Position numbers and translations under genes: made by a program. This document shows, in pieces, positions 2,101-18,132 of a stretch of DNA of 24,976 bases. The notes under the pieces were generated by a model. That model made no database searches and was not told the DNA's origin. It was given only the letters and a program-made list of their open reading frames with translations. Source of the DNA: an uncultured Candidatus Planktophila sp. (GTDB taxonomy: Bacteria; Actinomycetota; Actinomycetes; Nanopelagicales; Nanopelagicaceae); contig CALEZA010000095.1 in assembly GCA_937927965.1 (NCBI GenBank), forward strand, positions 1-24,976. Reading direction: 5' to 3'. Positions within the stretch are counted from its first letter, which is position 1. Every line of letters starts with the position of its first letter.

Positions 2101-2106
2101 AGGATA
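2101..2106 (-). promoter_or_regulatory. Candidate leaderless -10 box for mshA
   Basis: TATCCT on the minus strand, followed by 6 nt and the GTG start. It matches TANNNT, and its spacing would place transcription initiation at or next to the start codon. The identical hexamer and spacing occur before pheA. No Shine-Dalgarno sequence is visible. The inference is stronger because the arrangement recurs across the window. Confidence 0.5.
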
Positions 2107-2118
2107 GAGGAGTTGGAA

Positions 2119-3039
2119 TTAAAAGGTAGAGCGGATCTGGCCAATGACCTTATCTCCGCCTAAAACGCTCTCCACCGCATACGGAGAATCCACTCCTAAC
2201 ACCTTCAGCCCTGCATGCAAGACGACTTTAAAGGGACGAATGGATCCATCACTGACCTTAAAGACCAAAGTGCGACCATCTGGCATTGAGGCCACTTCAA
2301 CAGCTTCCACACCATCTTTCATATAGAGGCCAGGGACACTTCTCATCATCTCTGTCGTAAGGCGACCTTCACCTGCCACCATCTCTGGATATTGGCGAGA
2401 TGCAGCCAACACGCTGACATGTGGATTCTCATTAGAGAGTGTGATGGCACGAATGGCTCGCGCAAGACCTGCAACAGAAATCAGAAAGAGTGGAGCCCCG
2501 CAACCATCAGTGCTTGTCAGGGTAATTGTTTCGCCAGAGAGTGTTTCTAATTCACTTCTGCATGCAACTTGGAGTGGATGCTCTGGATCAAGGTAATTCT
2601 CAATAGGCCAGCCATTCTTAACGCAAGTTACCAACATGCCTGCGTGCTTACCGCTGCAATTCATTGCAATTCGAGTTGGTGGATTATCCCCATGAGCACG
2701 CCGCTCTGCCTCACCCAATGGTCTATCCAACATGCACTGCAAAGCTGATTCACTGAGATTAACTGTTGCAAGAATCTCTCTGACTGCATCCTGATGTTCA
2801 AGTGATCCAGAGTGGCTAGAGGCAGCGAGCGCGAGAAGTCGTGGCTCTAGATCTAACCCATGTCGCACCATTGCCGCTGCTTGAAAAGATTTCACAGTAG
2901 AGCGAGGAAAAATTAAATGAGAAGTATCCCCCAGCTCTAACGCGGTGGTTCCATCTGCATTAAGAGCGATGAGGTATCCACGGTGTTGTGATTCAACAAC
3001 TCCGCTGCGAACAAGTTCTGCCAATACTGCGTCGGACAT
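2119..3039 (-). CDS. ansA: L-asparaginase II (PF06089, Rhizobium etli AnsA / ReAV type)
   Basis: Cytosolic amidohydrolase expected to hydrolyse L-asparagine to aspartate and ammonia. The 306 residues are typical of the PF06089 family, which is unrelated to E. coli AnsA/AnsB. Residues equivalent to the published ReAV active site are visible: S47 and K50 in RSTVKSFQA, C128 and K131 in MNCSGKHAGML, and D178 and C180 in TDGCGAP. No signal peptide is present. The ATG directly abuts the stop of the nitrobindin-like gene (TAG-ATG), so the two are in one operon and probably coupled. Its presence beside redox genes is common in actinobacterial gene order, but no mechanistic link follows from the sequence. 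The gene may serve nitrogen scavenging. The family call is firm; the substrate is inferred. Confidence 0.92.
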   Translation of the reverse strand: MSDAVLAELVRSGVVESQHRGYLIALNADGTTALELGDTSHLIFPRSTVKSFQAAAMVRHGLDLEPRLLALAASSHSGSLEHQDAVREILATVNLSESALQCMLDRPLGEAERRAHGDNPPTRIAMNCSGKHAGMLVTCVKNGWPIENYLDPEHPLQVACRSELETLSGETITLTSTDGCGAPLFLISVAGLARAIRAITLSNENPHVSVLAASRQYPEMVAGEGRLTTEMMRSVPGLYMKDGVEAVEVASMPDGRTLVFKVSDGSIRPFKVVLHAGLKVLGVDSPYAVESVLGGDKVIGQIRSTF

Positions 3040-3546
3040 CTACTCGCTCTGCCTCTCAAGTGATGACCAGATGTGAGCTTGGAGTTCCTTGCCCATTGCA
3101 GCCATGTCATAGGATGTAAAGAGTTGTCCCTCAACTAGACCATAGAGGCGAGCGCCGTTTTCAACAGCTTTTGCAGTTGGTGCGATGTAAGCATGATCGA
3201 GCGCCATTTGAATTGATGGTCTCTCTTCGCTAATGCGACCAAGCCATCCTTCTGCAATACCTGTGCTGTGAACAAGAACCAATTCGATAATTCTGTTGGG
3301 TTTGATGCGCCAATAACCAGTCTCAGATGCACCTGGCTTTCCTCGCATCCCATCTTCGGTAATCATCCATGTGTGAGAGGTATATTCCATAAAGGCTCTT
3401 CCATCATGGCGGAAGGTCACTTCTTGCTCAAACTCAAACTTATCAATCCCAGGCCATTCCCCCATGCCTTTTCCGCCCCACTTACCGATCATCCACGCAA
3501 CGGGATAGAGATCTTCGTGAAGTCCCTCAGGGATAACAAAAGCCAT
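3040..3546 (-). CDS. Nitrobindin-like heme-binding beta-barrel protein (FABP-like, DUF1794/THAP4 C-terminal family)
   Basis: A 168-residue single-domain beta barrel. Family members bind ferric heme and have been assigned peroxynitrite isomerase / NO-related chemistry (M. tuberculosis Rv2717c, human THAP4 C-terminus). The diagnostic GxWxGxG motif is GKWGGKG at 21-27. The near-C-terminal histidine H158 (LQAHIWSSL) is at the expected place for the proximal heme ligand. The ATG overlaps by one base the stop of a 44-codon membrane ORF upstream (TAATG) and is followed directly by asparaginase. The operon also carries ygfZ and mshA, so a redox/nitrosative-stress theme is plausible but inferred. Older databases label such proteins fatty-acid-binding-like; the heme ligand argues for nitrobindin. 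Confidence 0.88.
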   Translation of the reverse strand: MAFVIPEGLHEDLYPVAWMIGKWGGKGMGEWPGIDKFEFEQEVTFRHDGRAFMEYTSHTWMITEDGMRGKPGASETGYWRIKPNRIIELVLVHSTGIAEGWLGRISEERPSIQMALDHAYIAPTAKAVENGARLYGLVEGQLFTSYDMAAMGKELQAHIWSSLERQSE

Positions 3547-3680
3547 TAGATTCTGCCTCTCTTATATGTGCGGGAATCTCGTGCCTTTGACTCTCGGCGG
3601 CCGCGAATTCCATAGATGAGAAGTCCAACACCGAGTGCAAGGGCAAATAACCCCAGTAACACCGTTGTGAGAAGCTCCAT
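3546..3680 (-). CDS. 44-aa single-pass membrane protein (unannotated small ORF)
   Basis: I do not recognise a family. The peptide starts MELLTTVLLGLFALALGV, continues with LLIYGIRGRRESKARDSR and ends TYKRGRI. It has one strongly hydrophobic segment (about 3-24) followed by a highly basic tail (R/K about 26-43), so the positive-inside rule predicts N-out/C-in. Two things support translation. Its stop overlaps the nitrobindin ATG by one base (TAATG). A TACGAT box sits 6 nt before its ATG, the same arrangement as in front of pstP. There is no SD. It could be a small regulator or stabiliser of a membrane complex, or an anchor; there is no direct evidence. It might also be a translated leader that couples expression of the downstream genes. 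Confidence 0.6.
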   Translation of the reverse strand: MELLTTVLLGLFALALGVGLLIYGIRGRRESKARDSRTYKRGRI

Positions 3681-3686
3681 GAGGTA

Positions 3687-3692
3687 ATCGTA
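3687..3692 (-). promoter_or_regulatory. Candidate leaderless -10 box for the 44-aa membrane ORF
   Basis: TACGAT on the minus strand with a 6-nt spacer before the ATG at 3680; the same hexamer and spacing as before pstP (15148-15153). It lies between the 24-codon ORF and the 44-codon ORF and would drive the downstream nitrobindin, asparaginase and mshA genes as well. Confidence 0.5.
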
Positions 3693-3695
3693 TCT

Positions 3696-3770
3696 TTAGA
3701 ACTTGCGGACAGCCCACATAATTGCGATGCAGGCGAGAGAAACTATGAGAAGTTGTCCTAAGAACTTCAT
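3696..3770 (-). CDS. 24-aa hydrophobic peptide overlapping the ygfZ stop
   Basis: A very short frame beginning MKFLGQLLIVSLACIAI and ending MWAVRKF, predicted as one membrane helix with a positively charged end. Its ATG overlaps the ygfZ TGA as ATGA, the same 4-nt overlap used by confirmed gene pairs in this window (pheA-serS, pstP-pknB), which argues for coupled translation. Its stop is 15 nt before the 44-codon membrane ORF. No family is recognisable and a chance open frame this short cannot be excluded from one genome. If real, it may be a small membrane protein or a coupling peptide. Confidence 0.42.
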   Translation of the reverse strand: MKFLGQLLIVSLACIAIMWAVRKF

Positions 3771-4678
3771 TTCGTTCCCTTCACAATGATCTCTTGTGCT
3801 GCAGTAATTCCTGAAACTGTCAGTGTTGCATCAGTTGGGGTTGTGCGCTTGACCAAGGCAAGGGCGATGGGACCAAGTTCATGATGGCGGGCAACTGTTC
3901 CTAAGAAACCCACTTGCACGCCATTGTTTTCAACAGGCGTTCCTGGCTCAGGAAAAATCACCGCAGAACCATCGAGGTGAAGCATTACCAATCTGCGTGG
4001 TGGGGCTCCTAAGTTAAATACCTTTGCGACAGTTTCTTGTCCTCTATAACAACCTTTATTCATATGAACAGATTTATTGAGAAGGCCTAATTCATTAGGA
4101 ATACTCTTGTTATCTGTGTCGATGCCATGACGAGGTCGACCTGCAGCTACTCGTTCTGCATCTAGCGCCCAGGTGCCTACTTCTCGTGCGTTTTCATTAA
4201 ATACCTTCTTCATCGCCTCTAGCTCAGAGCGAGGAACAAGTGCAAAGGGACCGCCGATATCAGTGGGAGTACCTGGTGCTCTGAGCACTACAAATTCAGC
4301 AGATGCATTTGCAGGTTCAACCTTTAACATAAAGCGCATCTTCATCAGATATGCCAATAAGTTATCTGCATAATCTGGATCCAGAACTAAGAATGTTGTT
4401 GCACCATCATCAACAAGGTTAAATTGATATTCGACTCTTCCATTGGGATCAAGAATCAATCCATCGCGCCACTGACCCGCAGGAAGGTCTAGAAGATATT
4501 GAGTGGTGAGGTCATGGAGCCACTTGAGTCGATCAAGCCCACCGATAGAGATGATGGAAAGGTGGGAAAGGTCTGCCCATGCTTTTCCTTCTTCGAGTGC
4601 GCGTTGCTCTTGGGCAGGTTGGCCAAAGTGCCAAATTGCACCTTTATCAGGACCACTCTCAACAAGGACTGCGCTCAT
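3767..4678 (-). CDS. ygfZ: Folate-binding YgfZ family protein (Fe-S cluster maintenance)
   Basis: YgfZ/GcvT-like protein (303 aa), homologous to the tetrahydrofolate-binding T-protein fold and to mitochondrial IBA57. In E. coli it supports the activity of certain Fe-S enzymes. The hallmark motif KGCYxGQE is present as K208-G-C210-Y-R-G-Q-E215. The GcvT-like N-terminal domain carries DLSHLSIISIGGLDRLKWLH (36-55), and the C-terminal barrel starts near residue 225. No glycine-cleavage genes lie nearby, which favours YgfZ over GcvT. It is the first gene of the leftward operon and diverges from pepP across 66 bp. A TAGACT box 7 nt before the ATG suggests a leaderless message. It is plausibly relevant to the Fe-S-rich succinate dehydrogenase and Rieske proteins in the window, but that link is inferred. 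Confidence 0.92.
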   Translation of the reverse strand: MSAVLVESGPDKGAIWHFGQPAQEQRALEEGKAWADLSHLSIISIGGLDRLKWLHDLTTQYLLDLPAGQWRDGLILDPNGRVEYQFNLVDDGATTFLVLDPDYADNLLAYLMKMRFMLKVEPANASAEFVVLRAPGTPTDIGGPFALVPRSELEAMKKVFNENAREVGTWALDAERVAAGRPRHGIDTDNKSIPNELGLLNKSVHMNKGCYRGQETVAKVFNLGAPPRRLVMLHLDGSAVIFPEPGTPVENNGVQVGFLGTVARHHELGPIALALVKRTTPTDATLTVSGITAAQEIIVKGTK

Positions 4679-4685
4679 GGTTGCA

Positions 4686-4691
4686 AGTCTA
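4686..4691 (-). promoter_or_regulatory. Candidate leaderless -10 box for ygfZ
   Basis: TAGACT on the minus strand with 7 nt (tgcaacc) before the ATG. It occupies one side of the 66-bp divergent region shared with pepP. No SD is present. Confidence 0.55.
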
Positions 4692-4732
4692 GCGGGCAGT
4701 GATGAGGGGCTCCTTTTTTACTGATAATCACC

Positions 4733-4738
4733 TAATAT
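4733..4738 (+). promoter_or_regulatory. Candidate leaderless -10 box for pepP
   Basis: TAATAT on the plus strand with a 6-nt spacer before the ATG at 4745. It is a near-consensus sigma-70 -10, with no SD between it and the start. No good -35 was found at 17 nt upstream. Confidence 0.58.
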
Positions 4739-4744
4739 TTACTT

Positions 4745-6202
4745 ATGAATAGCAATAACAGCGAAAATACAGAAGCGACAGAGAAGCAGAAGCGAGTCCA
4801 CGATCAAGCTCCATCTGATCGCTTCGCTGAATTTATGCGATCAGGGTGGTCTCCTTCAGATTATGAGGGATTACAACCTCTTGAAGTAGTCACCTACGCA
4901 TATGCTCGTCGCCAAGTGCTTTCTGCAGCTTTCCCAGGTGTGAGACTTGTATTACCTGCTGGTGGAGAGAAAGTTCGGTCAAACGATACTAATTACCAAT
5001 TCCGACCACACAGTGCATTTGCTTACTACAGCGGTGTTCAGGGTGCTGACTCCACTGCAGATGCAGTTCTTGTTATGGAACCAACAGCGGATGGACATTT
5101 GAGCTATCTCTATATCCGTCCACGCTCTACTCGTGACACGGATGCTTTCTATCGTGATTACAAATATGGAGAGTTGTGGGTAGGTCGACGATACACACTC
5201 TCTGAAGCACAAGCTCGCTATCAGATTGATACTCGACTTGTAGATGATCTTGAGACACTACTTAAAGATAATAAGGAAACTCTTGTTATCAGAGAAGTTG
5301 ATTCCACAATTGATTCTCTCGTCAAAGTCAACGAGCGAGATAAGGATTTTCTCACCTTCACATCTGAACAACGCCTCACCAAAGATGAGTATGAGCTTGT
5401 TGAAATGCAGAAGGCAGTAGATGCAACAGGACTTGGATTTAACGATGTTATCTCTGCAATACCTGCAGCAGTGGCAACACCTCGCGGAGAGCGAGTACTA
5501 GAAGCTGCTTTCTATGGTCGAGCAAGAGTTTTAGGCAACGATCTTGGATATAACACCATTGTGGGTGGCGGAGCCCATGCATGCGTACTTCACTGGGTTC
5601 GCAATGATGGAGATGTTCGTCTTGGCGATCTTGTTCTTGTTGATGCGGGAATCGAAGTCGACTCCTTTTACACAGCAGATATCACACGAACTCTTCCCGT
5701 CTCAGGAAAGTTCACACCAGCACAGCGTTCTCTCTACATGCTTGTCTATGAAGCACAGCTTGCTGGCTTTGCAGCTATTAAACCTGGAGTGAAATTCTCT
5801 GAGATCAATGCTGCATGTCAGAAGGTCCTTGCTGAAGGACTTGAAGCAATGGGAGTTCTCACTGTCACAGCAGCCGAATCACTTGAACCAGAGCTTGGAC
5901 TTCATCGTCGATGGACTCTCCATGGAGTCAGCCACCATCTAGGTATTGATGTCCACGATTGTGCACATGCTCGCAAAGAACAATATTTAGATAAGGAGCT
6001 TGAGGTGGGAATGGTTCTCACTGTTGAGCCTGGCCTCTATATCCAACCTGATGATGAGCTCTTTACGCCTGAATACCGTGGAATCGGCATTCGTATTGAA
6101 GATGACATTGTTGTTACTGAAACTGGCTATCGCAATCTCAGTGAAGATATTCCGCGTCACCCTGACGATATTGAAAAGTGGATGAAGGCTCTTCTAGGTT
6201 GA
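4745..6202 (+). CDS. pepP: Xaa-Pro aminopeptidase (M24B, PepP type)
   Basis: Cytosolic metalloprotease removing N-terminal residues that precede proline. It has 485 aa, with an AMP_N domain (about 50-190) and a C-terminal pita-bread peptidase domain. The five metal ligands of PepP are identifiable: D300 (LVDAG), D312 (TADITRT), H397 (HGVSHHLGIDVHD), E428 (TVEPGLY) and E452 (GIRIEDDI). The hydrophilic N-terminal tail of about 25 residues is as seen in many actinobacterial PepP proteins. The ATG follows the TAATAT box by 6 nt. The TGA stop overlaps the ATG of a Tat-exported Rieske protein by one base (TGATG), so the two are cotranscribed, though no functional relation is obvious. Confidence 0.95.
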   Translation: MNSNNSENTEATEKQKRVHDQAPSDRFAEFMRSGWSPSDYEGLQPLEVVTYAYARRQVLSAAFPGVRLVLPAGGEKVRSNDTNYQFRPHSAFAYYSGVQGADSTADAVLVMEPTADGHLSYLYIRPRSTRDTDAFYRDYKYGELWVGRRYTLSEAQARYQIDTRLVDDLETLLKDNKETLVIREVDSTIDSLVKVNERDKDFLTFTSEQRLTKDEYELVEMQKAVDATGLGFNDVISAIPAAVATPRGERVLEAAFYGRARVLGNDLGYNTIVGGGAHACVLHWVRNDGDVRLGDLVLVDAGIEVDSFYTADITRTLPVSGKFTPAQRSLYMLVYEAQLAGFAAIKPGVKFSEINAACQKVLAEGLEAMGVLTVTAAESLEPELGLHRRWTLHGVSHHLGIDVHDCAHARKEQYLDKELEVGMVLTVEPGLYIQPDDELFTPEYRGIGIRIEDDIVVTETGYRNLSEDIPRHPDDIEKWMKALLG

Positions 6203-6717
6203 TGAAATCTCGTCGCAGCGTTCTTCTCGCTCTTATCGCAAGCACCTTAGCTGCAACTCCATTTGCAACTGCTGCTACCGGCCCAACTCTCAAGCCTACA
6301 AAGCTGGGTCAGACAATCATCTGGCGAGGAAAGAAGTACACAGCAATTAAGTCTGGGAAGAAGTTGGTCTGGAATAAGGGAGTACCTGTGGCTTCTCCTT
6401 CTCCAACGAAATCCTCAAATCTCAAAGAGATCGTGATTGCTAAATCTAGCGATGTTGCAGTCGGCGAAACTCGAAGCTTTACACAAGGCAAAACTTATTT
6501 TGTGAGCAGAACTGCCACAGCTCTCTTCGCATTTGATGATGTCTGCACACACCAGGGTTGCTCTGTTGAGCTCTCAGGTAAAGAGATGGTCTGCCCATGC
6601 CATCAAGCTCGATTTAGCGCAGCAGATGGAAAACTTATACAAGGTCCTGCGACGAGGAGTCTTCGTTCTTACGAAGTCAGTGATGTCAATGGATCTATTG
6701 TTATTCGAGGCGTTTAA
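6202..6717 (+). CDS. Tat-exported Rieske [2Fe-2S] protein
   Basis: A 171-residue exported electron-transfer protein of unknown partner. I choose the ATG at 6202 (TGATG overlap with pepP) because it places the twin-arginine motif SRRSVLL at residues 3-9, followed by a hydrophobic core and an ATA-A type cleavage region near 24-26; an in-frame ATG at 6178 would put it internally. The C-terminal Rieske domain has ligands C115 and H117 (CTHQGC) and C131 and H134 (CPCHQARF), with C120 and C133 placed to form the stabilising disulfide of high-potential Rieske centres. Between signal and domain (about 30-75) is a basic, Ser/Pro-rich linker with YTAIKSGKKLVWNKG. There is no transmembrane anchor after the signal. 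The stop codon overlaps the convergent crcB stop. It is not a bc1 Rieske subunit by size or context. Confidence 0.88.
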   Translation: MKSRRSVLLALIASTLAATPFATAATGPTLKPTKLGQTIIWRGKKYTAIKSGKKLVWNKGVPVASPSPTKSSNLKEIVIAKSSDVAVGETRSFTQGKTYFVSRTATALFAFDDVCTHQGCSVELSGKEMVCPCHQARFSAADGKLIQGPATRSLRSYEVSDVNGSIVIRGV

Positions 6718-7055
6718 TTCGCTGCAAGCTGCAAGCCACACCATGCAGCAAGCAAACCGAAGAGAAGTGATGCGCTTAAATTAACTGCCACAGCTCGATA
6801 TCTCCTGAGTTCAAATCCAAGATAGAGATCGAGCATAAATGTTGACCAGGTGGTGAATGTTCCAATAAATCCAACAACGAGAAAATCGTGCCAGTGTTCG
6901 GAACTTCCCAAAGTCAAACCAATAAGAAATGAGCCTGCGACATTAATGAGGAAAATGCCTAGCGGGTGATCGGTTACCTTCCTAAAGCGATTATCAATGA
7001 GAAACCGGGCAGGAGCTCCGATTGCAGCGCCTAGAGCAACAAGGAGAGCTCTCAT
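6714..7055 (-). CDS. crcB: Fluoride exporter CrcB/Fluc, second subunit of a tandem pair
   Basis: A 113-residue four-helix membrane protein of the Fluc family, which exports fluoride as a dual-topology dimer. The start at 7055 (MRALLVALGAAIGAPARF) is chosen because its ATG overlaps the upstream crcB stop as ATGA; an in-frame ATG 18 nt earlier lies inside that gene. Family signatures are the N-terminal GAAIGAPARF, GIFLINVAGSF with N38, and the GFIGTFTTWSTF segment (62-73) containing the central sodium-site and phenylalanine-box region. With the adjacent homologue it probably forms a heterodimeric channel, as in organisms with paired crcB genes. Its stop is shared tail-to-tail with the Rieske gene (4-bp overlap), leaving no room for a terminator between them. 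Confidence 0.92.
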   Translation of the reverse strand: MRALLVALGAAIGAPARFLIDNRFRKVTDHPLGIFLINVAGSFLIGLTLGSSEHWHDFLVVGFIGTFTTWSTFMLDLYLGFELRRYRAVAVNLSASLLFGLLAAWCGLQLAAN

Positions 7056-7405
7056 GCCTTCACCTTGATCCATCTGCGAGAGAGGGGAAGTGCAATTGCG
7101 ACTGCGACAAGGGATGCCAGAACATTGAGTAGGAGATAAGTAAATCCAGCTCCACTCTCTCGCATCACTTCAAATGTGACTCCGCTAAAGGTGGTTAGGC
7201 CACCGCAATAGCCTGGAATCAGGAACCAACGAAGCTCTGTGATGCCTCTGCGTTCCATGAGTACGAGTAGATGAGCAGCTAGACCTGCGCCCACAATATT
7301 GGCGATGAGATTTCCTTCAGCGCTATCGGGGAGCCAGAGACCAAGCAGAAAGCGAGAGAGGGAGCCTAAGACTCCCCCTGCGCTAACAAGTAGTACCGCT
7401 TTCAG
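7052..7405 (-). CDS. crcB: Fluoride exporter CrcB/Fluc, first subunit, apparently starting at CTG
   Basis: A Fluc homologue read as 117 residues. The first ordinary start codon in frame is GTG at 7294, but that would give only 80 aa and remove helix 1. Homologous sequence continues upstream: SAGGVLGSLSRF matches the Fluc N-terminal GGxxGAxxR signature and GNLIANIVGAG matches GxxxxNxxG. The upstream in-frame stretch contains no ATG, GTG or TTG. A CTG at 7403-7405 overlaps the preceding gene's TGA as CTGA, mirroring the ATGA used by the next crcB. The conserved GYCGGLTTFSG segment lies at 65-75. Gene identity is secure; the CTG start is inferred. Other near-cognate starts (for example ATT/ATC) or an assembly error are alternatives. 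The pair likely forms a heterodimer. Confidence 0.85.
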   Translation of the reverse strand: MKAVLLVSAGGVLGSLSRFLLGLWLPDSAEGNLIANIVGAGLAAHLLVLMERRGITELRWFLIPGYCGGLTTFSGVTFEVMRESGAGFTYLLLNVLASLVAVAIALPLSRRWIKVKA

Positions 7406-7752
7406 CGCAGAACCGGCTTCTGCAGCGTCTTTACGATTGTTGTAATCGCACTAATGATCAAAGATGCAAAGAGCGCTGACCAAAAGCCAGTGATATCTAA
7501 CTTATCTGACCAGCGTGCTGTAAGAGAGAGCATTGCTGCGTTGACTACAAAGAGGAAGAGTCCGAATGTGACTATGGAAACTGGAAAGGTTAATACCTTA
7601 ATTAAAGATCCAAAGATTGAATTAATTAATCCGAAGAGCAGAGCCACCCAGAAGTAGGTTGTAAAACCGCCATTAACTGTAATTCCAGGAACGGCGAGAG
7701 TTGCAATCCACATTGCAAAGGCGAGAACTGCCCAACGGATAATCAACTTCAT
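7402..7752 (-). CDS. PF04020 family four-TM membrane protein ('phage holin family', YvlD-like)
   Basis: A 116-residue protein with about four hydrophobic helices (roughly 5-22, 30-52, 56-75 and 88-108), matching the widespread chromosomal PF04020 family (Phage_holin_4_2 / YvlD). The family is named for resemblance to holins, but most members are housekeeping membrane proteins of unknown role; nothing here indicates a prophage. Family-like features are the GITVNGGFTTYFWVALLFGLIN region and FPVSIVTFGLFLFVVNAAML around 57-76. It starts 5 nt after the sdhB stop and its TGA overlaps the probable CTG start of crcB, so it lies in the sdh-crcB operon. I see no SD before it. Confidence 0.85.
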   Translation of the reverse strand: MKLIIRWAVLAFAMWIATLAVPGITVNGGFTTYFWVALLFGLINSIFGSLIKVLTFPVSIVTFGLFLFVVNAAMLSLTARWSDKLDITGFWSALFASLIISAITTIVKTLQKPVLR

Positions 7753-7757
7753 TGAAA

Positions 7758-8516
7758 TTAATCTCTCTTTTCGCGGCGAAGCAATCCACTGAACATGCGA
7801 GCTGGATCGTATTTAATATCAACAACGCGCTCCTTCATAGGAATGATTGCGTTATCTGTAATACGAATATGCTCAGGACATACTTCAGTACAGCACTTAG
7901 TGATGTTACACATTCCTAAGCCGTGCTCTTCTTGAGCGGTGCGCTTACGATTCTTGAGTCGATCCAGTGGGTGCATATCGAGCTCTGCGATTCTGATAAA
8001 GAAGCGAGGACCCGCAAATGACTTCTTATTCTCTTCGTGATCGCGAATCACATGGCATGTGTTCTGACAGAGGAAGCACTCGATGCACTTACGGAACTCT
8101 TGTGAGCGCTCCACATCGATCTGCTCCATGCGAGCCTCTCCTGGGCCAAGCTCTGCTGGATGCTCATATGCAGGGATTTCCATCGCCTTCTTGTAGTTGA
8201 AGGAGACATCTGTGACGAGGTCCTTGATGATTGGGAATGCACGAAGTGGTGTGACGGTGATGGTTTCATCCTCATCAAAGGAGGCAACCTGCGTCATACA
8301 AGCTAGGCGTGGCTTACCGTTGATCTCCATAGAGCAAGATCCGCACTTGCCAGCTTTACAGTTCCAGCGAACAGCGAGGTCACCCATTTGGGTTGCCTGA
8401 ACGCGGTGGATGACATCAAGGACTACTTCGCCCTCGTTCACATCAACAACAACATCCTTTAGGCCGCCATCTGTTGAATCACCGCGCCAAATACGAAGAT
8501 TAAGTTTGCGTGTCAT
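7758..8516 (-). CDS. sdhB: Succinate dehydrogenase iron-sulfur subunit (Sdh1-like)
   Basis: Iron-sulfur subunit of complex II (252 aa), carrying electrons from SdhA flavin to the membrane subunit. All cluster ligands are visible. [2Fe-2S]: C53, C58, C61 and C73. The first C-x2-C-x2-C-x3-C block: C144, C147, C150 and C154. The second block: C203, C208, C209 and C213. Together these form the [4Fe-4S] and [3Fe-4S] sites. The sequence and gene order C-A-B resemble mycobacterial Sdh1 (Rv0249c-Rv0247c) rather than the four-subunit Sdh2. The ATG overlaps the sdhA TAA by one base and is preceded by a full-consensus ribosome binding site inside the sdhA 3' end, presumably to keep SdhB stoichiometric with SdhA. 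Confidence 0.95.
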   Translation of the reverse strand: MTRKLNLRIWRGDSTDGGLKDVVVDVNEGEVVLDVIHRVQATQMGDLAVRWNCKAGKCGSCSMEINGKPRLACMTQVASFDEDETITVTPLRAFPIIKDLVTDVSFNYKKAMEIPAYEHPAELGPGEARMEQIDVERSQEFRKCIECFLCQNTCHVIRDHEENKKSFAGPRFFIRIAELDMHPLDRLKNRKRTAQEEHGLGMCNITKCCTEVCPEHIRITDNAIIPMKERVVDIKYDPARMFSGLLRREKRD

Positions 8517-10402
8517 TAGTTGGCACCTCCTTTCGCAATTTCTTCCGGTGTCATGTATTTCTCCAACTCATGAACATCAAAGAGATCAAAGAGCTCTTTT
8601 GGTAGAGGTGGAAGAGGTTTTGGCGTGACAACAACTTCGCTGCCGTTATAGCTAGCGATGTGGTTGACCTGACGCCATGTGTTGCTCATTCCTGGGAAGT
8701 CATCGCGAGTGTGACCACCGCGAGATTCTTCACGCAAGATTGCTGACTTTGCAGTTGATTCTGCAACAAGCAACATATTGTCGAGATCGAATGCAAGGTG
8801 GAAGCCAGGGTTGAATTTGCGATCTCCTGCAACTGAAACCTTCAAGCTGCGCTTGCGAATATCTGCAATCTTCTCAATTGCTTCCTTGAGCTCTGAACCT
8901 GTGCGGATAATTCCGACAAGGTTGTGAGCGACTTCTTGAAGCTCTTGGTGGAGTGAGTATGCATTCTCGCCACCCTCGTGAGTAAATGGAGCTTGAATGC
9001 GTCCTGCAGCAGCTTGAACAGTTGCATCAGAAACTGGATTTGCACCATTGCTCTTCACATATTCAGCTGCGCCCATTCCTGCGCGACGACCGAATACGAG
9101 AAGGTCTGAGAGGGAGTTTCCACCCAAACGGTTAGATCCATGCATTCCGCCTGCAACTTCACCTGCTGCAAAGAGTCCTGGAACTCCAATTGCAGCTGCT
9201 GTGTCAGGCTCAACATCAACGCCACCCATCACATAGTGGCAAGTTGGACCAACCTCCATAGGCTCCTTCGTAATATCCACGCCGGCTAGCTCATAGAACT
9301 GGTGCCACATAGATGGAAGGCGCTTTTTAATCACTTCAGCTGATAGTCGCTTGGAGACATCAAGGAAGACTCCGCCATGTTCTGTTCCACGACCTGCCTT
9401 AACCTCTGCATTGATAGCACGAGCAACTTCATCACGAGGCAATAGTTCAGGAGGACGACGGTTGTTATCTTGATCTGTATACCAACGATCTGCTTCTTCT
9501 TCAGTCGTTGCATACTTATCTTTAAATACTTCAGGGATGTAATTGAACATGAATCGCTCACCCTTATTGTTGGTGAGCACTCCACCTTCACCGCGAACAG
9601 ATTCTGTTACAAGAATTCCTCGCACTGATGGTGGCCATACCATTCCTGTTGGGTGGAATTGCAAGAACTCCATATCCTTCAAGCTTGCTCCTGCTTTGAG
9701 AGCTAGAGCATGGCCATCGCCTGTGCCCTCCCAAGAGTTGGAAGTGATCTTAAATGTCTTACCGACGCCACCAGTTGCAATAACAACTGCTGGTGCTTCG
9801 ATGAGGACCTCATCTCCATTCTCACGCCAATAACCATAGACCCCAGCAACCTTGCCGTTTTCTTTGAGAACTTCAGTGATAGTTAGCTCTGCAAATACCT
9901 TGAGCTTTGATTCTGCATCACCAAATTCACGAGCATCTTTCTGTTGGAGAGCAACAATCTTCTGCTGCATTGTGCGGATGAGTTCAAGACCAGTGCGGTC
10001 ACCCACATGTGCAAGGCGAGGATATTCATGTCCACCAAAGTTGCGCTGGGAAATCTTTCCTTCTGATGTGCGATCAAAGAGCGCGCCCCACATCTCAAGT
10101 TCCCAGATGCGATCTGGAGATTCTTTCGCGTGAAGTTCTGCCATGCGATAGTGGTTGAGGAACTTTCCTCCACGCATTGTGTCGCGGAAGTGAACCATCC
10201 AGTTATCGTTGCTATTGGCATTACCCATTGAGGCTGCTGCGCCACCTTCAGCCATCACTGTGTGAGCCTTGCCAAATAAGGACTTACAGACGATTGCAAC
10301 GCTGAGACCTGATTCGCGTGCCTCTACAGCAGCGCGGAGTCCAGCTCCACCTGCACCGACGATTACTACGTCGTACTTAAGTTTCTGAAGATTCTGTGCC
10401 AT
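8516..10402 (-). CDS. sdhA: Succinate dehydrogenase flavoprotein subunit (Sdh1-like)
   Basis: Catalytic FAD subunit (628 aa) that oxidises succinate to fumarate at the cytoplasmic face of the membrane. The N-terminal dinucleotide-binding motif is VVIVGAGGAGLRAA (12-25), and H47 in KAHTVMAEGG is the site for covalent FAD attachment. Substrate-site elements include FHPTG (H250) and the RGEGG loop starting at R270; a further arginine lies in LPRDEVARAI. The C-terminal helical domain ends near TPEEIAKGGAN. The gene lies between sdhC (20-nt gap) and sdhB (TAATG overlap). No Shine-Dalgarno site of good spacing precedes it. The Sdh1-like sdhC partner argues for a forward succinate:quinone oxidoreductase, most likely with menaquinone, but direction cannot be proven from sequence. 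Confidence 0.96.
   Translation of the reverse strand: MAQNLQKLKYDVVIVGAGGAGLRAAVEARESGLSVAIVCKSLFGKAHTVMAEGGAAASMGNANSNDNWMVHFRDTMRGGKFLNHYRMAELHAKESPDRIWELEMWGALFDRTSEGKISQRNFGGHEYPRLAHVGDRTGLELIRTMQQKIVALQQKDAREFGDAESKLKVFAELTITEVLKENGKVAGVYGYWRENGDEVLIEAPAVVIATGGVGKTFKITSNSWEGTGDGHALALKAGASLKDMEFLQFHPTGMVWPPSVRGILVTESVRGEGGVLTNNKGERFMFNYIPEVFKDKYATTEEEADRWYTDQDNNRRPPELLPRDEVARAINAEVKAGRGTEHGGVFLDVSKRLSAEVIKKRLPSMWHQFYELAGVDITKEPMEVGPTCHYVMGGVDVEPDTAAAIGVPGLFAAGEVAGGMHGSNRLGGNSLSDLLVFGRRAGMGAAEYVKSNGANPVSDATVQAAAGRIQAPFTHEGGENAYSLHQELQEVAHNLVGIIRTGSELKEAIEKIADIRKRSLKVSVAGDRKFNPGFHLAFDLDNMLLVAESTAKSAILREESRGGHTRDDFPGMSNTWRQVNHIASYNGSEVVVTPKPLPPLPKELFDLFDVHELEKYMTPEEIAKGGAN
8526..8531 (-). 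promoter_or_regulatory. Consensus Shine-Dalgarno site for sdhB
   Basis: AGGAGG (in AAAGGAGGT) on the minus strand, 9 nt before the sdhB ATG and within the last codons of sdhA. It shows that this genome uses strong SD-led initiation as well as the leaderless arrangement seen elsewhere in the window. Confidence 0.85.
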
Positions 10403-11223: not shown

Positions 11224-11228
11224 TGCAA

Positions 11229-11387: not shown

Positions 11388-11395
11388 ACTTACCG

Positions 11396-11478: not shown

Positions 11479-11521
11479 GTGGGAGAGGCTACTAGAGAAT
11501 GTGGGGTTTTTGAAAATCGGC

Positions 11522-12337
11522 TTATGCGGGCAGATCAAGGAGGGCTTCGATAGCTATCGCCACTCCGTCTTCCTCACATGCCCCAGCAACACTCTTTGCA
11601 TATCGGGGACCATCTGGGTGGCCAGATGACATCGCATAGGAGCGACCACTCCATGCAAGCATTGAAAAGTCATTTGGGTTATCGCCGAAGGTGACGCAAT
11701 CGGCTGCATAGATTCCAAGGCGTGATGCCATCTCTGCCAGAGTCGACCCTTTAGAAACGCCAAGTGCAGAGATTTCAAGAAGTGAATCATCCGGGTTGGA
11801 GTGTGTGACCGTTACCAACCCTTCCAGTTCACGGGTTGCAATCTCAAGCATTTGATCGGATGAAAGATTCTGCTGTGAACAGCGTGCAAGCATTTTCAGT
11901 GCTGGTGCCTTAATCACATCTTCAATTGTGACAACACCAATATTGTCGAGTCCAACATCCCAACGAGGGATGTAAGCCTTTTCACGATGGAAGTAGAGAT
12001 GAGATTCAACAGCAAAAGAAACTTGAGGAATTGACTTGCGAAGGCGGTTAACAGTTTCCAACTGATCATCGACTTCAATAAGCCACTCTTCCAAAACTTT
12101 ATCTGCCATGAGGTCATAGAGCATCGCTCCATTACCGCAGATTGCATTTCCAAAACCAAAAGCTTCACGAATCTCTGGCATCCAACGAGGGGGTCTTCCT
12201 GTGACAAAGAAAATCTCAACGCCAAGATCGCGTGCTCTCTTAAATGCATTGATTGTGCGATCTGAAATCACTCCATCATGTGTAACGATGGTGCCATCGA
12301 GATCGGTTGCTATCAGCTTGGGGCGACGATTACTCAC
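11522..12337 (-). CDS. Cof-type HAD-IIB phosphatase
   Basis: A 271-residue cytosolic hydrolase of the HAD superfamily, Cof subfamily. Such enzymes dephosphorylate sugar phosphates or cofactors; the substrate is not deducible. The four motifs are present: D12 and D14 (TDLDGT), T46 (FVTGRPP), K196 (GVSKGSTL) and D219/D223 ([10 protein letters not shown]). A C2B cap lies between about 85 and 185. The start is GTG, overlapping the serS stop as GTGA, and it is probably coupled. A HAD phosphatase directly after serS is a recurrent actinobacterial arrangement, though a link to charging is not established. It ends 43 nt before the tRNA-Ser gene on the same strand. Confidence 0.9.
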
Positions 12338-13602
12338 ACGAGCTCTAACTTAGTTCTGCCAAGAAATGGTTGCAGTGCTGCTGGAACATTGACTGATCCA
12401 TCTGCATTCTGATGATTCTCAAGAATTGCAACAATCATGCGTGGAATTGCCACAAGAGTGCCGTTAAGGGTTGCGATTGCCTTTGTGCCATCTGCATCCT
12501 TGTAACGGATATTGAGTCTGCGAGCCTGGAACTCAGTGCAGTTAGAAGTGCTTGTCACTTCACGATATGCGCCTTGTGTTGGAATCCATGCCTCAATATC
12601 AAATTTACGAGTAGCGCTGGAGCCAAGATCTCCTGATGCCACATCAATTACGCGGTATGGAATCTCCATTGCATTGAGGAAATCCTTCTCCCACTGGAGC
12701 AAGCGCTTATGTTCTTCTTTAGCATCTTCAGGCTTACAGAAGGAGAACATCTCCACCTTATCGAATTGGTGAACACGGATAATTCCACGAGTGTCTTTTC
12801 CATATGTGCCTGCTTCACGGCGGAAGCATGATGAATATCCTGCATAGCGCATCGGCAACTTGTCGCCAGGCAAAATCTCATCCATATGCATCGCTGCAAG
12901 TGGAACTTCAGAAGTTCCCACTAGATAGACATCGTCTTTCTCAATTCGATAAACATTCTCAGCGGCTTGTCCAAGAAATCCTGTTCCCTCCATGGCAGAT
13001 GGATTGACTAGCACTGGAGGAATTACAGGCGTGAAACCATTTTTGAGCGCACTTTGAATTGCGTAATTAACAAGTGCGAACTCAAGCATTGCTCCAGCGC
13101 CAGTGAGGTAGTAGGAGCGAGAGCCTGCAACCTTTGCACCGCGCTCTGTATCAATGGCGCCAAGTAGTTTTCCTAACTCAACATGATCGCGAGGTTCAAA
13201 ACCATCTTTAGCAAAATCTCGTGGAGTCCCCACATGTTCAATTGTGACGAAATCTTCTTCTCCGCCGATAGGAGCTTCAGTGTCGAGAAGGTTTGAAAGC
13301 TGCATCACAAGTTGCTTTGCCTGCTCTTCTACTTCAGCGCGCTTTGAATCGGCTGCCTTGACCTTATCTGCCAACTCTTTTGCATTCGCCAAAAGCGCTG
13401 TCTTCTCATCACCTTTTGCAGCTCCCACACTCTTTGAGAGCGTGTTCTGCTCTTGGCGGAGAGATTCAAACTCTGCAATAGCAGCACGCTTAATCTCATC
13501 GATTGCAAGAATCTGATCCACTAGTTCAACGCTCTCGCCGCGACCCTTTTGAGATTGGCGAACGACATCTGGGTTTTCTCGCAGGAACTTGATATCAATC
13601 AT
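12334..13602 (-). CDS. serS: Seryl-tRNA synthetase
   Basis: Class II synthetase (422 aa) attaching serine to tRNA-Ser. The N-terminal coiled-coil arm (about 30-105, with runs such as [16 protein letters not shown]) recognises the long variable arm of tRNA-Ser. The catalytic domain has [11 protein letters not shown], motif 2 ([18 protein letters not shown], with the following RVHQFDKVE) and motif 3 ([17 protein letters not shown]). The ATG overlaps the pheA stop as ATGA and its own stop overlaps the HAD gene start as GTGA. No independent promoter is visible, so expression depends on the GDPD/pheA promoters. The length is normal for a bacterial serS. Confidence 0.97.
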
Positions 13603-14426
13603 GAACGCACCTCTCGTGGGTAAGAACCTAAGAATCTGATGTCATCGCAGATCTCACGGAGATCTTCCATCGACTTGGCAACTGCCTCATCATGGATATG
13701 GCCCTCAACATCAATAATGAAATGGTAGTGACCGAGTTCGCGTCCTGTTGGACGTGACTGGATAAAGGTGAGGTTCACGCCGTAATTGGCGAAAACAGTC
13801 AGGATTTCAAGGAGCGCTCCCGCGTGGTCAATATCGATATAAACCACAAGTGAGGTTCGGTCATGGCCAGTTGGTGCTGGAATAAAACCTGGCTTCTGGG
13901 CTGCGATAAAACGAGTGACTGCCACCTGATTATCGCCAATGTCTTCTGCAAGCACTGTAAGGCCAAAGTGCTCTGCAGCACTCGATGATGCAATCGCTGC
14001 ATCGAGTTCACCCTTTGCAACCAGTTCTGCAGCTGCTGATGTGGAGTTGGTGGCGATGATCTCTGCATGAGGATAGGTCTGAGAAAGATATGTGCGGCAC
14101 TGTGATTCAGCATGAGGGTGGGTACCAATTCGATTTACTGAAGTTGTTCCCTCTTTCACCATTAAATCAAAGGTGACAGGAAGAGTTACTTCCGCTGCAA
14201 TGGTGAGTGCTTCACCTGTAGCTAATTCATCAAGAGTTCGTGCAACAACACCCTCAACTGAGTTCTCAATCGGAACTAGAGCGTAATCAGCATCGCCGCT
14301 TCGAACAGCATCGAGAGCTGCTGTGACATTGATGTAAGGAATTCGATTATCAGAGCCGTTTGTGATCTTCTTCAACGCCGCTTCTGTAAAGGTCCCGACA
14401 GGACCGAGATAGGCGTATGTAGGCAT
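13599..14426 (-). CDS. pheA: Prephenate dehydratase (phenylalanine synthesis)
   Basis: Monofunctional enzyme (275 aa) converting prephenate to phenylpyruvate. The N-terminal PDT domain (1-180) contains [22 protein letters not shown] (52-61) and the catalytic T171-R172-F173. The C-terminal ACT domain (about 190-265) carries the phenylalanine-binding elements GALLEIL (203-209) and QSRP (223-226, ESRP in the classical form), so feedback inhibition by phenylalanine is expected. No chorismate mutase domain is fused. It lies 12 nt after the GDPD gene and is coupled to serS by ATGA. TATCCT with 6 nt before the ATG suggests a leaderless promoter inside the short gap. The cluster GDPD-pheA-serS resembles the mycobacterial Rv3842c-Rv3834c region with intervening genes lost. 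Confidence 0.96.
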
Positions 14427-14432
14427 TGGCTA

Positions 14433-14438
14433 AGGATA
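14433..14438 (-). promoter_or_regulatory. Candidate leaderless -10 box for pheA
   Basis: TATCCT on the minus strand followed by 6 nt (tagcca) and the pheA ATG. It is identical in hexamer and spacing to the box before mshA. It lies entirely within the 12-nt gap after the GDPD stop. Confidence 0.5.
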
Positions 14439-15125
14439 CTAAAGGAATGAGCGGGCTTGCGACGGCGTATTTGTAATCACTATATCCACGCCTAAATCTC
14501 TACATAGTTCAACATCTGCTTGGCTATCAACAGTCCAAACAGCCACTTTCTTGCCAAGAGATCTCGCCTTGGCGACTAGCTCATTCTTATCCCGCATTAC
14601 TGTGATTCCTGGTGCAAGTGTTTTCGCTGATGAGTAGCGTGCTTGAAACCATCGTGTTCTCTCTGAAATGAGAAAAGTGGTCGGAATCTCAGAATTAATG
14701 CGGCGAAGTTTTTCCACTGCGCTCCAACTAAATGACATCACTGAGACAGGAATTTTCTTCAACACCTTTCGATCTCTCAGAGTGTGAGCCACTACTTCTT
14801 CAATTGCATTTGCTGAGATGACTGGGTGCTTTGTTTCTAGTAACACTCCCTTTGAACTTTCCAGTGCTATATCGAGAAAATCATTGAGTGTGAGAATTTG
14901 CGGATAGGCGCGAGAGATCTCATTAAAAGTCATCTCTGCTATCAGGCCATTATTTCCTGCCCTCTCCAACATTGATGCGTTATGCCAGAGAACTGGGATG
15001 CCATCTCTACTTAAACGAAGGTCACACTCAAATCCATCTGCGCCCTGCTCAATTGCAGCGCGATATGCAGCCTCAGTCAGCTCTGGATACTCAGCAGAGG
15101 CTCCTCGGTGTGCATAGATCAGCAT
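14439..15125 (-). CDS. Glycerophosphodiester phosphodiesterase family protein (GDPD)
   Basis: A 228-residue cytosolic TIM-barrel phosphodiesterase, expected to split glycerophosphodiesters into glycerol-3-phosphate and an alcohol. Catalytic/metal elements are H6-R7 (AHRGAS), E33 and D35 (FECDLRLSRDG), and H48 (VLWHN). Two positions deviate from the common motif: PELT instead of PENT (15-17) and HN instead of HD (48-49). Mycobacterial GlpQ1 also departs from PENT, so activity is not excluded. There is no signal peptide, so it acts on internal lipid-turnover products. It is the first gene of the leftward pheA-serS operon. Its ATG is separated by 34 bp from the divergent pstP ATG, and TACCCT lies 7 nt before it. 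Confidence 0.88.
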   Translation of the reverse strand: MLIYAHRGASAEYPELTEAAYRAAIEQGADGFECDLRLSRDGIPVLWHNASMLERAGNNGLIAEMTFNEISRAYPQILTLNDFLDIALESSKGVLLETKHPVISANAIEEVVAHTLRDRKVLKKIPVSVMSFSWSAVEKLRRINSEIPTTFLISERTRWFQARYSSAKTLAPGITVMRDKNELVAKARSLGKKVAVWTVDSQADVELCRDLGVDIVITNTPSQARSFL

Positions 15126-15132
15126 GTCAATG

Positions 15133-15138
15133 AGGGTA
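15133..15138 (-). promoter_or_regulatory. Candidate leaderless -10 box for the GDPD gene
   Basis: TACCCT on the minus strand, 7 nt (cattgac) before the ATG. It lies inside the 34-bp space between the divergent GDPD and pstP starts. A 17-nt-spaced -35 would overlap the pstP start codon. Confidence 0.5.
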
Positions 15139-15147
15139 GCAAACCAT

Positions 15148-15153
15148 TACGAT
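15148..15153 (+). promoter_or_regulatory. Candidate leaderless -10 box for pstP
   Basis: TACGAT on the plus strand, 6 nt (tacggc) before the ATG at 15160. Its position decides the pstP start: the in-frame ATG at 15124 lies upstream of this box and overlaps the GDPD start. A 17-nt-spaced -35 would fall on the GDPD start codon. Confidence 0.55.
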
Positions 15154-15159
15154 TACGGC

Positions 15160-15936
15160 ATGAGCAGGCTCTACTTCGCAACTGCGGCTAAATCAGCTGT
15201 GGGGCTTGTGCGTGCTGGAAACGAAGATTCAGCCTTTACCTCAAAATCTGTGATTGCCGTTGCAGATGGAATGGGAGGCCATGCAGCTGGTGAAGTTGCT
15301 TCCCGCATCGCAATTACAACTCTTGCGAACGAGTCCCAGATATTCGCGCAGGATGATGTTGATTTTGAATCAGCAGATGATCTCTTCGCATCCTCTATTA
15401 CAGTCATTGACTCGGTAATTGCTGAGTATGCAATTGAGAAGCCAGAACTTGCTGGAATGGGAACTACGCTCTCTTCTTTATTCCTTCGTGGTGATTCGGT
15501 AGCAATGGTTCATGTTGGTGATTCACGCATCTACCGACTTCGTGGAAATGCATTTGAACAACTCTCTATAGACCACACAGTCATTCAAGAACTTCTCGAT
15601 CAAGGCTCCATCACTGAGGCAGATATCGCTACTCATCCTCAACGCTCAGTCCTCACACAAGTGTTAATGGGCGATGGTCGCAATCAACCGAGTCTCTCGG
15701 TCTATCCAGTCAAAGCAGATGATCGATATTTGCTCTGCAGCGATGGACTCACAGGTGTGCTGGGAGATAAAGAGATTAAAGCCATTATTAAGGGCAAAGC
15801 TCGTGGTGCTGCAGTAGAGGCTCTCGTTGAAGCAGCTTACGCCAATGGCGCCCCTGATAATGTCTCCGTGATCGTTGCTGATTTACTGGAAAACGATATT
15901 CAGGAACCCCTCACTATGTTTGGAGCAGCAAAATGA
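15160..15936 (+). CDS. pstP: PP2C-family Ser/Thr protein phosphatase (PstP-like, catalytic domain only)
   Basis: A metal-dependent phosphatase that reverses phosphorylation by the kinase encoded next to it. I place the start at 15160 (MSRLYFATAAKSAVGLVRAGNEDS), as for actinobacterial PstP. Motifs: D23 (GNEDS), D36-G37 (VADGMGGHAAGEVAS), GTTLSSL (101-107), HVGDSRIYRL (118-127), D195 (LLCSDGLTG) and D233 (GAPDNVSV). At 258 aa it has only the cytosolic catalytic domain. Mycobacterial PstP has an additional membrane helix and an extracytoplasmic domain, both absent here. The stop overlaps the pknB start as ATGA. The usual rodA, pbpA and pknA genes are missing between the two. Confidence 0.93.
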   Translation: MSRLYFATAAKSAVGLVRAGNEDSAFTSKSVIAVADGMGGHAAGEVASRIAITTLANESQIFAQDDVDFESADDLFASSITVIDSVIAEYAIEKPELAGMGTTLSSLFLRGDSVAMVHVGDSRIYRLRGNAFEQLSIDHTVIQELLDQGSITEADIATHPQRSVLTQVLMGDGRNQPSLSVYPVKADDRYLLCSDGLTGVLGDKEIKAIIKGKARGAAVEALVEAAYANGAPDNVSVIVADLLENDIQEPLTMFGAAK

Positions 15937-17477: not shown

Positions 17478-17492
17478 CTCTTACTTATTAAT
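17460..17492. terminator. AT-rich inverted repeat at the pknB/trpG convergent junction
   Basis: ATTAATAAG (17460-17468) and CTTATTAAT (17484-17492) form a perfect 9-bp inverted repeat around a 15-nt centre that contains both stop codons. Each arm encodes I-N-K at the end of its own protein. The only intergenic sequence is 3 nt. It could be a weak bidirectional terminator, but the stem is AT-rich and a U-tract is lacking. Confidence 0.3.
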
Positions 17493-18110
17493 TACTGGAG
17501 ATAGTCCTTCTGCGCGGGCAGGAGCTCCTGCATCACCGCATTGCACCAAGAAATTGGCGAGCATCTTATGTCCGTGCTCTGTGAGTACAGATTCAGGATG
17601 GAACTGAACACCTTCGATAGGAAGGCTCTTATGACGAAGAGCCATGATCACTCCCGATTCAGTCTCTCCAGTAATTTCTAATTCATCAGGAACTGTCTCT
17701 CGTTCAACTGCAAGTGAGTGGTATCGCGTTGCTGTGAAAGGTGATGGAAGATTGGTCATCACACCTTTTCCGTTGTGGTTCACAACAGATGTCTTTCCAT
17801 GCAGAAGCTCTGGTGCTCGTGAAACAGTTGCTCCAAATGCTTCACCGATTGCTTGGTGGCCAAGGCAGACTCCAAAGAGTGGAATGGAATGTTCTGCACA
17901 GAAGCGAATCATGGGGATAGAGACGCCAGCCTTATCGGGGGTGCCAGGACCTGGAGAGATAAGTACTCCGTCATAGTTGGCGGCTTCGCTTGCCTCAACC
18001 TGATCGTTGCGGACAACAGTGCACTCTGCGCCTAGCTGTGCGAGATATTGCACGAGGTTAAAGACGAAGGAGTCGTAGTTATCGACGACAAGGATGTGGG
18101 CCACGAGCAT
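17481..18110 (-). CDS. trpG: Class I glutamine amidotransferase, anthranilate/aminodeoxychorismate synthase component II
   Basis: Provides ammonia from glutamine to a TrpE or PabB partner for tryptophan or folate synthesis. It has 209 aa with catalytic C82 (GVCLGHQAIGE), H171 and E173 (VQFHPESVLTEHG), plus VDNYDSFVFNLVQYL near the start and the SPGPGTP loop (52-58). No synthase component I gene is in the window, and in actinobacteria the pknB-linked copy is annotated as trpG or pabA, so the dual role is open. ATG at 18110 is annotated; GTG two codons later (18104) has better spacing from the AGGAG upstream and gives the more typical MAHILVVDNYD start. It is divergent from crgA and shares its tiny promoter region. 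It converges on pknB. Confidence 0.92.
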   Translation of the reverse strand: MLVAHILVVDNYDSFVFNLVQYLAQLGAECTVVRNDQVEASEAANYDGVLISPGPGTPDKAGVSIPMIRFCAEHSIPLFGVCLGHQAIGEAFGATVSRAPELLHGKTSVVNHNGKGVMTNLPSPFTATRYHSLAVERETVPDELEITGETESGVIMALRHKSLPIEGVQFHPESVLTEHGHKMLANFLVQCGDAGAPARAEGLSPVINK

Positions 18111-18119
18111 ATTCTCCTG

Positions 18120-18126
18120 TAATCTA
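18120..18126. promoter_or_regulatory. Overlapping -10 boxes for crgA (+) and trpG (-)
   Basis: TAATCT (18120-18125) on the plus strand lies 7 nt before the crgA ATG, giving a leaderless crgA message. TAGATT (18121-18126) on the minus strand overlaps it by five bases and lies 10 nt before the trpG ATG. A minus-strand AGGAG (18113-18117) sits between. The 22-bp space between start codons thus appears to be a bidirectional promoter with a shared -10. Confidence 0.5.
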
Positions 18127-18132
18127 CGGGCT

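Follow-up and report, generated by a model that had tools for sequence, protein, structure and literature searches.

TANNNT boxes 6-7 nucleotides before start codons point to leaderless genes in the order Nanopelagicales

The window analyzed here is a 24,976-nucleotide (nt) stretch of contig CALEZA010000095.1 (assembly GCA_937927965.1) from an uncultured Candidatus Planktophila sp. of the order Nanopelagicales, Actinomycetota. The acI/Nanopelagicales are very abundant lake bacteria; the genomes examined measured 1.1-2.2 Mb, with a G+C content of 41-51% across the order members sampled. The element in question is a hexamer, TANNNT, that precedes the start codons of eight genes in the window by 6 or 7 nt (Table 1), from mshA to crgA and including a conserved open reading frame (ORF) of 44 amino acids (aa). 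A sequence-only reading of this DNA had listed the eight boxes, had noted the lack of a Shine-Dalgarno (SD) sequence at each of them, and had pointed to a CAAAAT at 8 nt from a lacI-type gene. We inspected the 45 nt upstream of 29 start positions (the ORF at 115-294 was excluded from the 28 genes counted). All eight hexamers were found at the spacing given, no SD word (AGGA, GGAG, GAGG, AAGG or AGGT) was present in the roughly 22 nt before any of the eight starts, and the CAAAAT was present as described. The window has 48% G+C, and its sdhA product is 92% identical to the product of contig WLDB01000005.1 of a metagenome-assembled genome (MAG).

Table 1. Genes, putative −10 boxes and a divergent gap in the window
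Feature	Positions	Strand	Remarks
mshA	835..2094	-	TIGR03449 above cut-off
Box TATCCT	2101..2106	-	6 nt before mshA GTG (first base 2094)
44-aa ORF, conserved	3546..3680	-	matches in 40/61 Nanopelagicales genomes, E <= 0.1, weak tail
Box TACGAT	3687..3692	-	6 nt before ATG 3680 of 44-aa ORF
ygfZ	3767..4678	-	TIGR03317 above cut-off
Box TAGACT	4686..4691	-	7 nt before ygfZ ATG 4678
Box TAATAT	4733..4738	+	6 nt before pepP ATG 4745
pepP-like aminopeptidase gene	4745..6202	+	best match NF008131, below its cut-off
pheA, prephenate dehydratase	13599..14426	-	PF00800, PF01842
Box TATCCT	14433..14438	-	6 nt before pheA ATG 14426
GDPD family gene	14439..15125	-	PF03009
Gap between divergent GDPD and pstP genes, 34 bp	15126..15159		contains both putative −10 boxes
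Box TACCCT	15133..15138	-	7 nt before GDPD ATG 15125
Box TACGAT	15148..15153	+	6 nt before pstP ATG 15160; same start picked by our gene caller
pstP-like PP2C phosphatase gene	15160..15936	+	PF13672 (scan from 15124)
Probable weak −10 box GAGAAT	18111..18116	-	6 nt before likely trpG GTG 18104; deduced
Box TAATCT	18120..18125	+	7 nt before crgA ATG 18133
crgA	18133..18396	+	PF06781 (scan from 18094)
CAAAAT, may be a weak −10 box	20766..20771	-	8 nt before lacI-type gene; from sequence only

Genome-scale tests were made on relatives of the window organism. The main samples comprised 400 kb each from two complete genomes, P. lacus and IMCC26103, and further samples came from four more genomes of the order, with E. 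coli K-12 as control. Genes were called with a program of our own that combines a dicodon score with a start-codon prior, is blind to upstream DNA and has a cut-off of 60 aa. TANNNT at spacing 6-7 preceded 83 of 360 starts in P. lacus and 70 of 382 in IMCC26103 (81 of 359 and 71 of 383 with slightly different training of the caller). In these two samples spacings 3-5 had 0-3 boxes each, positions 14-39 upstream gave 0.9-1.1% TANNNT per spacing, and internal in-frame ATG or GTG codons (n=2994 and 2972) gave 0.3-0.4% at spacing 6 and 0.7-0.9% at spacing 7. The four other genomes had the box at 6-7 in 17/93, 13/84, 24/94 and 13/91 genes. The genome scan that had been suggested as a check, run on relatives, thus yielded a sharp peak at 6-7 in six genomes of the order and no enrichment in E. 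coli K-12, where 4 of 217 starts had a box against 9.1 expected. In the window itself the claim of strong enrichment over a chance rate of a few percent was borne out, with a box at 8 of 28 genes when the starts of the sequence-only reading are taken (P = 2.5e-8 at 1.8% for two spacings). With the starts of the blind caller the count was 6 of 24 (P = 3.5e-6), the mshA box being missed because the caller chooses start 2070 and that of the 44-aa ORF because the ORF falls under the cut-off. Twelve other genomes of the phylum (100 kb each), picked from 60 by a crgA match on a long contig, had the box at 0-15% of starts, a range that gives no ranking of other Actinomycetota against Nanopelagicales because high G+C (at least 62% in 10 of the 12) may degrade the caller's choice of starts.

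Box frequency depended on the position of a gene relative to its neighbors. Divergent heads were the highest class (39 of 96 in P. lacus and 23 of 82 in IMCC26103), co-directional genes lying 50 base pairs (bp) or more from the gene before them had a box in 11/58 and 11/67 cases, and overlapping co-directional genes were at background with 2/69 and 2/93. Being found at heads and at background level in overlapping genes, the box behaves as would be expected of a promoter and not of a signal for translation only. The earlier statement that boxes mark most operon heads turned out to be too strong: strict TANNNT is present at five of the ten window heads (by our reading ygfZ, pepP, GDPD, pstP and crgA have it, and sdhC, trpG, lldD, lacI and a rbsA-like gene do not), and at 50/154 and 34/149 of all heads in the two relatives, that is, at about a quarter to a third. 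Upstream ATG and GTG codons were also scanned for 883 non-leaderless genes of the six genomes. Those in frame had a box in 21 cases at spacing 6 and 9 at spacing 7, compared with 0-7 at other spacings, an excess indicating that the caller's starts are wrong there; about 20 further leaderless starts, missed by the caller, thus appear to exist in the six genomes (30 at 6-7 against about 4 usual per spacing). Out-of-frame codons had 13 boxes at spacing 6 and 3 at spacing 7, not clearly above the 3-12 elsewhere, and leaderless upstream ORFs were rejected as a general feature.

The 153 pooled sites of P. lacus and IMCC26103 (106 at spacing 6 and 47 at 7) were used to derive a sequence logo. The logo showed no −35 motif at a set distance, every position upstream of −16 carrying at most 0.15 bits. 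Two bases ahead of the box G (or A) was favored, and the fifth box base, where TATAAT has A, was rich in C (43-47% in the two main samples). Of the four other genomes, two had C as the commonest letter at this base and the two with 41% G+C had A. C or T stood at −1 in 77% of box sites vs 35% of SD-led starts. The start codons at box sites were 134 ATG, 19 GTG and no TTG, as compared to 27 TTG in 589 among the others (Fisher P = 0.003). Transcription starting with the first codon base would explain both the pyrimidine at −1 and the absence of TTG. Box and SD occurred at the same start in 3 of the 153 sites.

A four-letter SD word was found at 21% and 28% of starts in the two relatives, and the end of the 16S ribosomal RNA, GGATCACCTCCT, was intact in 13 of 13 loci with both strands read; with its anti-SD intact, the SD route remains available. 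The expectation that sdhB and sdhC keep SD sequences held for sdhB of the window, where an SD is present, and did not extend to the orthologues at large: SD words were detected in 0 of 76 sdhB orthologues and in 32 of 67 for sdhC (27 of 80 for sdhA). In the window, sdhB has its strong SD (8516-8530, minus strand) within the end of sdhA, and the corresponding stretch in the orthologues displayed reads GAAAGGCGGT or similar. Among the sdhA relatives, of which the best 80 of 282 were kept, several MAG records with a product 85-89% identical to that of the window carry the title Bifidobacterium breve or Streptomycetaceae bacterium and look mislabeled (L021, L024, L029, L038, L046, L060, L067 and L075, and also L005 and L050).

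Conservation was followed in orthologues whose start codons were anchored via protein alignment alone, and counts refer to distinct upstream sequences. In two extractions of loci, 30 were taken out of 60 matches and 30 out of 61. Orthologues with an unaligned N-terminus, a start shifted by more than 3 codons, a short match or a missing start were excluded, among others 12 for pheA and 45+10+1 for crcB1. A separate alignment excluded 9 for the 44-aa ORF, 4 for ygfZ and 0 for mshA. The box was retained at 6-7 in 34 of 34 upstreams of pheA, as eight different hexamers, and in 28 of 28 of crgA, as nine (20 at spacing 6 and 8 at spacing 7). In these two genes the T, the A and the last T had a frequency of 1.0, and the commonest letter at the middle three positions reached 0.41-0.50 in pheA and 0.57-0.82 in crgA. 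For mshA the box was found in 26 of 27 upstreams, the remaining one having it at spacing 9, and for pepP in 12 of 13 (44 orthologues, 23+12+7+2, could not be anchored or were excluded). The 44-aa ORF had it in 23 of 28 upstreams at the aligned start and in the other five at an ATG 11 nt upstream. Retention was weaker for pstP (22 of 32), and serS, which was not on the original list, had the box in 18 of 40. Neighboring genes taken as non-leaderless were nearly devoid of it, with 0/32 for pknB, 0/60 for sdhA, 0/24 for sdhB, 0/59 for sdhC and 1/38 for a HAD gene. The gene behind sdhB (7402-7752, minus strand) has a box in 25 of 37 orthologue upstreams and none in the window. A weaker form, NANNNT at 6-7 nt, preceded trpG in 23 of 25 upstreams, which favors GTG 18104 over ATG 18110 as the start in the window; trpG therefore probably starts at GTG 18104 with the weak box GAGAAT (window 18102-18116, minus strand). 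A leaderless crgA of ancient origin, common to the phylum, is not supported, since the box lay at 6-7 in 5 of 29 wider-phylum loci (the set of 30 loci, L125-L154, has 6 at 6-7 including P. lacus, L129, together with 3 at 8, 3 at 9 and 1 at 10).

Three of the four divergent pairs in the window carry boxes on both sides, namely ygfZ/pepP with a gap of 66 bp, GDPD/pstP with 34 bp and trpG/crgA with 22-28 bp, the trpG box being the weak one. The median divergent gap was 75.5 and 119 bp in the two relatives; the E. coli sample had 178.5 bp, and nine other genomes of the phylum had 80-267.5 bp. Among 127 divergent pairs of the six genomes, 20 candidate rows were boxed on both sides with a gap of 8-40 bp, nine of them at called starts; none of these rows came from the genomes G071, G075 and G081. 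A compact arrangement was followed in a divergent pair that we take, from the translated starts, to be a response-regulator-like and a thioredoxin-like gene. A gap of 17 or 18 bp with boxes was present in 14 of 30 loci (L229-L258), as five distinct sequences (L229, L231, L232, L235-L239, L248, L249, L252 and L255-L257, around locus position 1500), and in these 14 a shift by one base turns the box of one gene into that of its partner (for example gTATTCTC, which on the opposite strand is GAGAATAc). At 18-bp gaps (3 of the 30 loci, starts 19 bp apart) TANNNT is found on both strands; at 17-bp gaps (11 of the 30, starts 18 bp apart) the minus strand has a weak box, either GAGAAT or CAGACT. Loci L242 and L247 have the 17-bp gap without boxes. 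Start sites on both start codons would, at a 17-bp gap, lie 18 bp apart, where −7T and −11A pair reciprocally, and with both transcripts leaderless one box would nearly fill the intergenic region. A shared −10 box as a common arrangement is not supported: one called pair of the 127 has a 17-18-bp gap, and three more candidate rows with gaps of 16-18 bp rely on alternative starts.

Two gene families keep the box and have a putative leader behind it. In three loci of the pair described above (L245, L250 and L254) the box is kept and a stretch longer by 21, 22 or 62 nt precedes the response-regulator-like gene, with an SD word near the end of the extra stretch in L245 and L250. In six loci of the 44-aa ORF (L296, L299, L300, L334, L337 and L338) the box lies 6-7 nt before the ATG situated 11 nt upstream of the aligned start. 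The putative 11-nt leader that separates the main start from the −10 box begins with ATGGAG, the GGAG of which could serve as SD for the main start. Five of these leaders were translated; their 5′ ATG opens a six-codon out-of-frame ORF (MEKRWN*, MEIRWN*, MEARWN*, MEQEWS* or MELQWN*) with its stop just inside the main ORF. The 44-aa ORF itself, which lies between ygfZ and a gene of THAP4/nitrobindin-like type and codes for a small hydrophobic protein, gave no match in a search of the Pfam and NCBIfam profiles. Taking both families together we lean, at little better than even confidence, towards the view that leaderless starts may compress a divergent promoter to the theoretical-minimum gap of 17-18 bp, with one symmetrical −10 box read both ways and both messenger RNAs (mRNAs) leaderless, and that genes may switch between a leaderless and an SD-led state through a short leader gained or lost behind an unmoved −10 box.

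The counts given above establish where the box lies, its enrichment and conservation, and its start-site context. The most plausible account of them, which we hold with high confidence, is that TANNNT would be the housekeeping −10 element, placed so that transcription starts at the start codon and gives a leaderless mRNA. At spacing 6 the T, the A and the last T of the box would occupy −12, −11 and −7, the A and the last T presumably being read by the primary (housekeeping) sigma factor. RNA polymerase would start at the first codon base, with A or G as +1, and the ribosome would bind directly, without an SD, to the 5′ AUG or GUG of an mRNA devoid of a 5′ leader; the remaining genes would use the SD route. 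The leaderless interpretation put forward earlier is consistent with the peak at 6-7, the retention in orthologues, the pyrimidine at −1 and the use of ATG and GTG without TTG. Several points weigh against it. GDPD has the box at 6-7 in just 10 of 20 distinct upstreams and ygfZ in just 9 of 28. Going by these upstreams the ygfZ site is lineage-specific and mostly not leaderless in relatives, perhaps because another gene precedes ygfZ there, as the upstream letters suggest. Since related species are not independent, the distinct-upstream counts measure retention and not a number of events. A −35 element at variable distance would blur out of the pooled logo, and the mutual exclusion of box and SD is partly mechanical, as the 12 nt that they share leave no room for both. 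Finally, the start sites are deduced from sequence alone and the start codons are called ones, though the caller ignores upstream DNA.

If the box is a true −10 element, the start site might still lie a few bases off, yielding a very short leader or a start inside the codon. A few boxes do occur at spacings 8 and 9 (for each spacing, 9 among the 360 starts of P. lacus and 5 among the 382 of IMCC26103), the lacI-type gene has its hexamer at 8 nt, the 29 GDPD loci include five with the box at spacing 5 and one at 8, and the single deviating mshA orthologue has it at 9. We nevertheless consider such a displacement improbable in view of the sharp peak, the near absence of boxes at spacings 3-5, and the pyrimidine at −1 followed by a purine at the first codon base. 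Chance or base composition would be a more trivial origin, including the stop codon TAA or TAG of an upstream gene supplying the TA; TANNNT is not rare at a genome G+C of about 48%, and some boxes overlap the end of the preceding gene. This is contradicted by the internal-codon and E. coli controls, and divergent heads, which have no upstream stop codon, are the most enriched class while overlapping co-directional genes stay at background, so that its probability is close to nil. The near-constant distance to the start codon could also suit an A/T-rich ribosome-binding signal acting in translation inside a longer mRNA. Such a signal would not be expected to keep T, A and T constant while the middle varies, as sigma contacts would predict; moreover, overlapping operon genes are rarely boxed, and in two gene families the kept box is followed by a longer putative leader, which in most cases contains an SD word. 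We regard a translation-level signal as hardly credible and retain the −10 box of a leaderless gene as the preferred explanation.

Apart from these sites, the window contains two neighboring, overlapping genes of CrcB-type fluoride channels (6714-7399, minus strand). The start of the second is uncertain and all matches listed for the two lie below the family cut-offs.

If about one fifth of the genes in these bacteria are leaderless, SD-based annotation of starts would be wrong for some of them, and 5′ ends in metatranscriptomes should pile up on start codons. The TANNNT box would in turn help to fix start codons from the DNA. A literature search on leaderless or Shine-Dalgarno genes of Nanopelagicales, Planktophila or acI returned no title on leaderless genes of this order, subscription papers being mostly outside its coverage; a search combining divergent or bidirectional with leaderless returned no shared leaderless −10 box among the matches listed, and one combining tandem duplication, leaderless and SD found nothing related. 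Warman et al. 2021 reportedly described bidirectional promoters whose two start sites are separated by 18 bp.

According to PMC10268837, such promoters have −7T and −11A reciprocally paired at this 18-bp spacing. Predicted start sites on the two start codons would have the same spacing at the 17-bp gaps seen here, with the difference that both transcripts would be leaderless. In Deinococcus-Thermus, another phylum, a 2025 study (PMC12340547) reports −10 boxes next to ORFs as shown by experiment to drive leaderless genes, the same architecture as in Nanopelagicales. For Mycobacterium tuberculosis, Cortes et al. 2013 (PMC3898074) mapped 5′ ends and found that, of the genes for which there is a primary start site, 26% are leaderless, with a TANNNT −10 box, no −35 motif and, in many cases, a purine two bases ahead of the box. 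Leaderless genes were depleted in energy metabolism there, and closely juxtaposed divergent promoters were common. The likeness extends to the box, the missing −35 motif and the preceding purine, and sdhA, sdhB and sdhC are not leaderless by our counts either; the 5′ ends were mapped in M. tuberculosis, whereas those of Nanopelagicales are predicted from the DNA. Zheng et al. 2011 (PMC3160421) defined TA-led leaderless genes, with TANNNT about 12 bp before the start and no SD, which make up a mean of 19.2% of genes in Actinobacteria (range 2.3-29.8), and the Nanopelagicales boxes share this position and the lack of an SD. The material of that paper considered here does not treat Nanopelagicales. 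It assigns TAnnnT to high-GC groups and TAtaaT to medium-GC groups, whereas Nanopelagicales keep TANNNT, the high-GC form, at 41-51% G+C, which suggests that TANNNT leaderless promoters are independent of high G+C. Leaderless genes are thus known in Actinobacteria, and the Nanopelagicales case is, as far as its sequence tells, of that kind; what it would add is the order itself, TANNNT at 41-51% G+C, and candidate promoters that are compressed and that switch.

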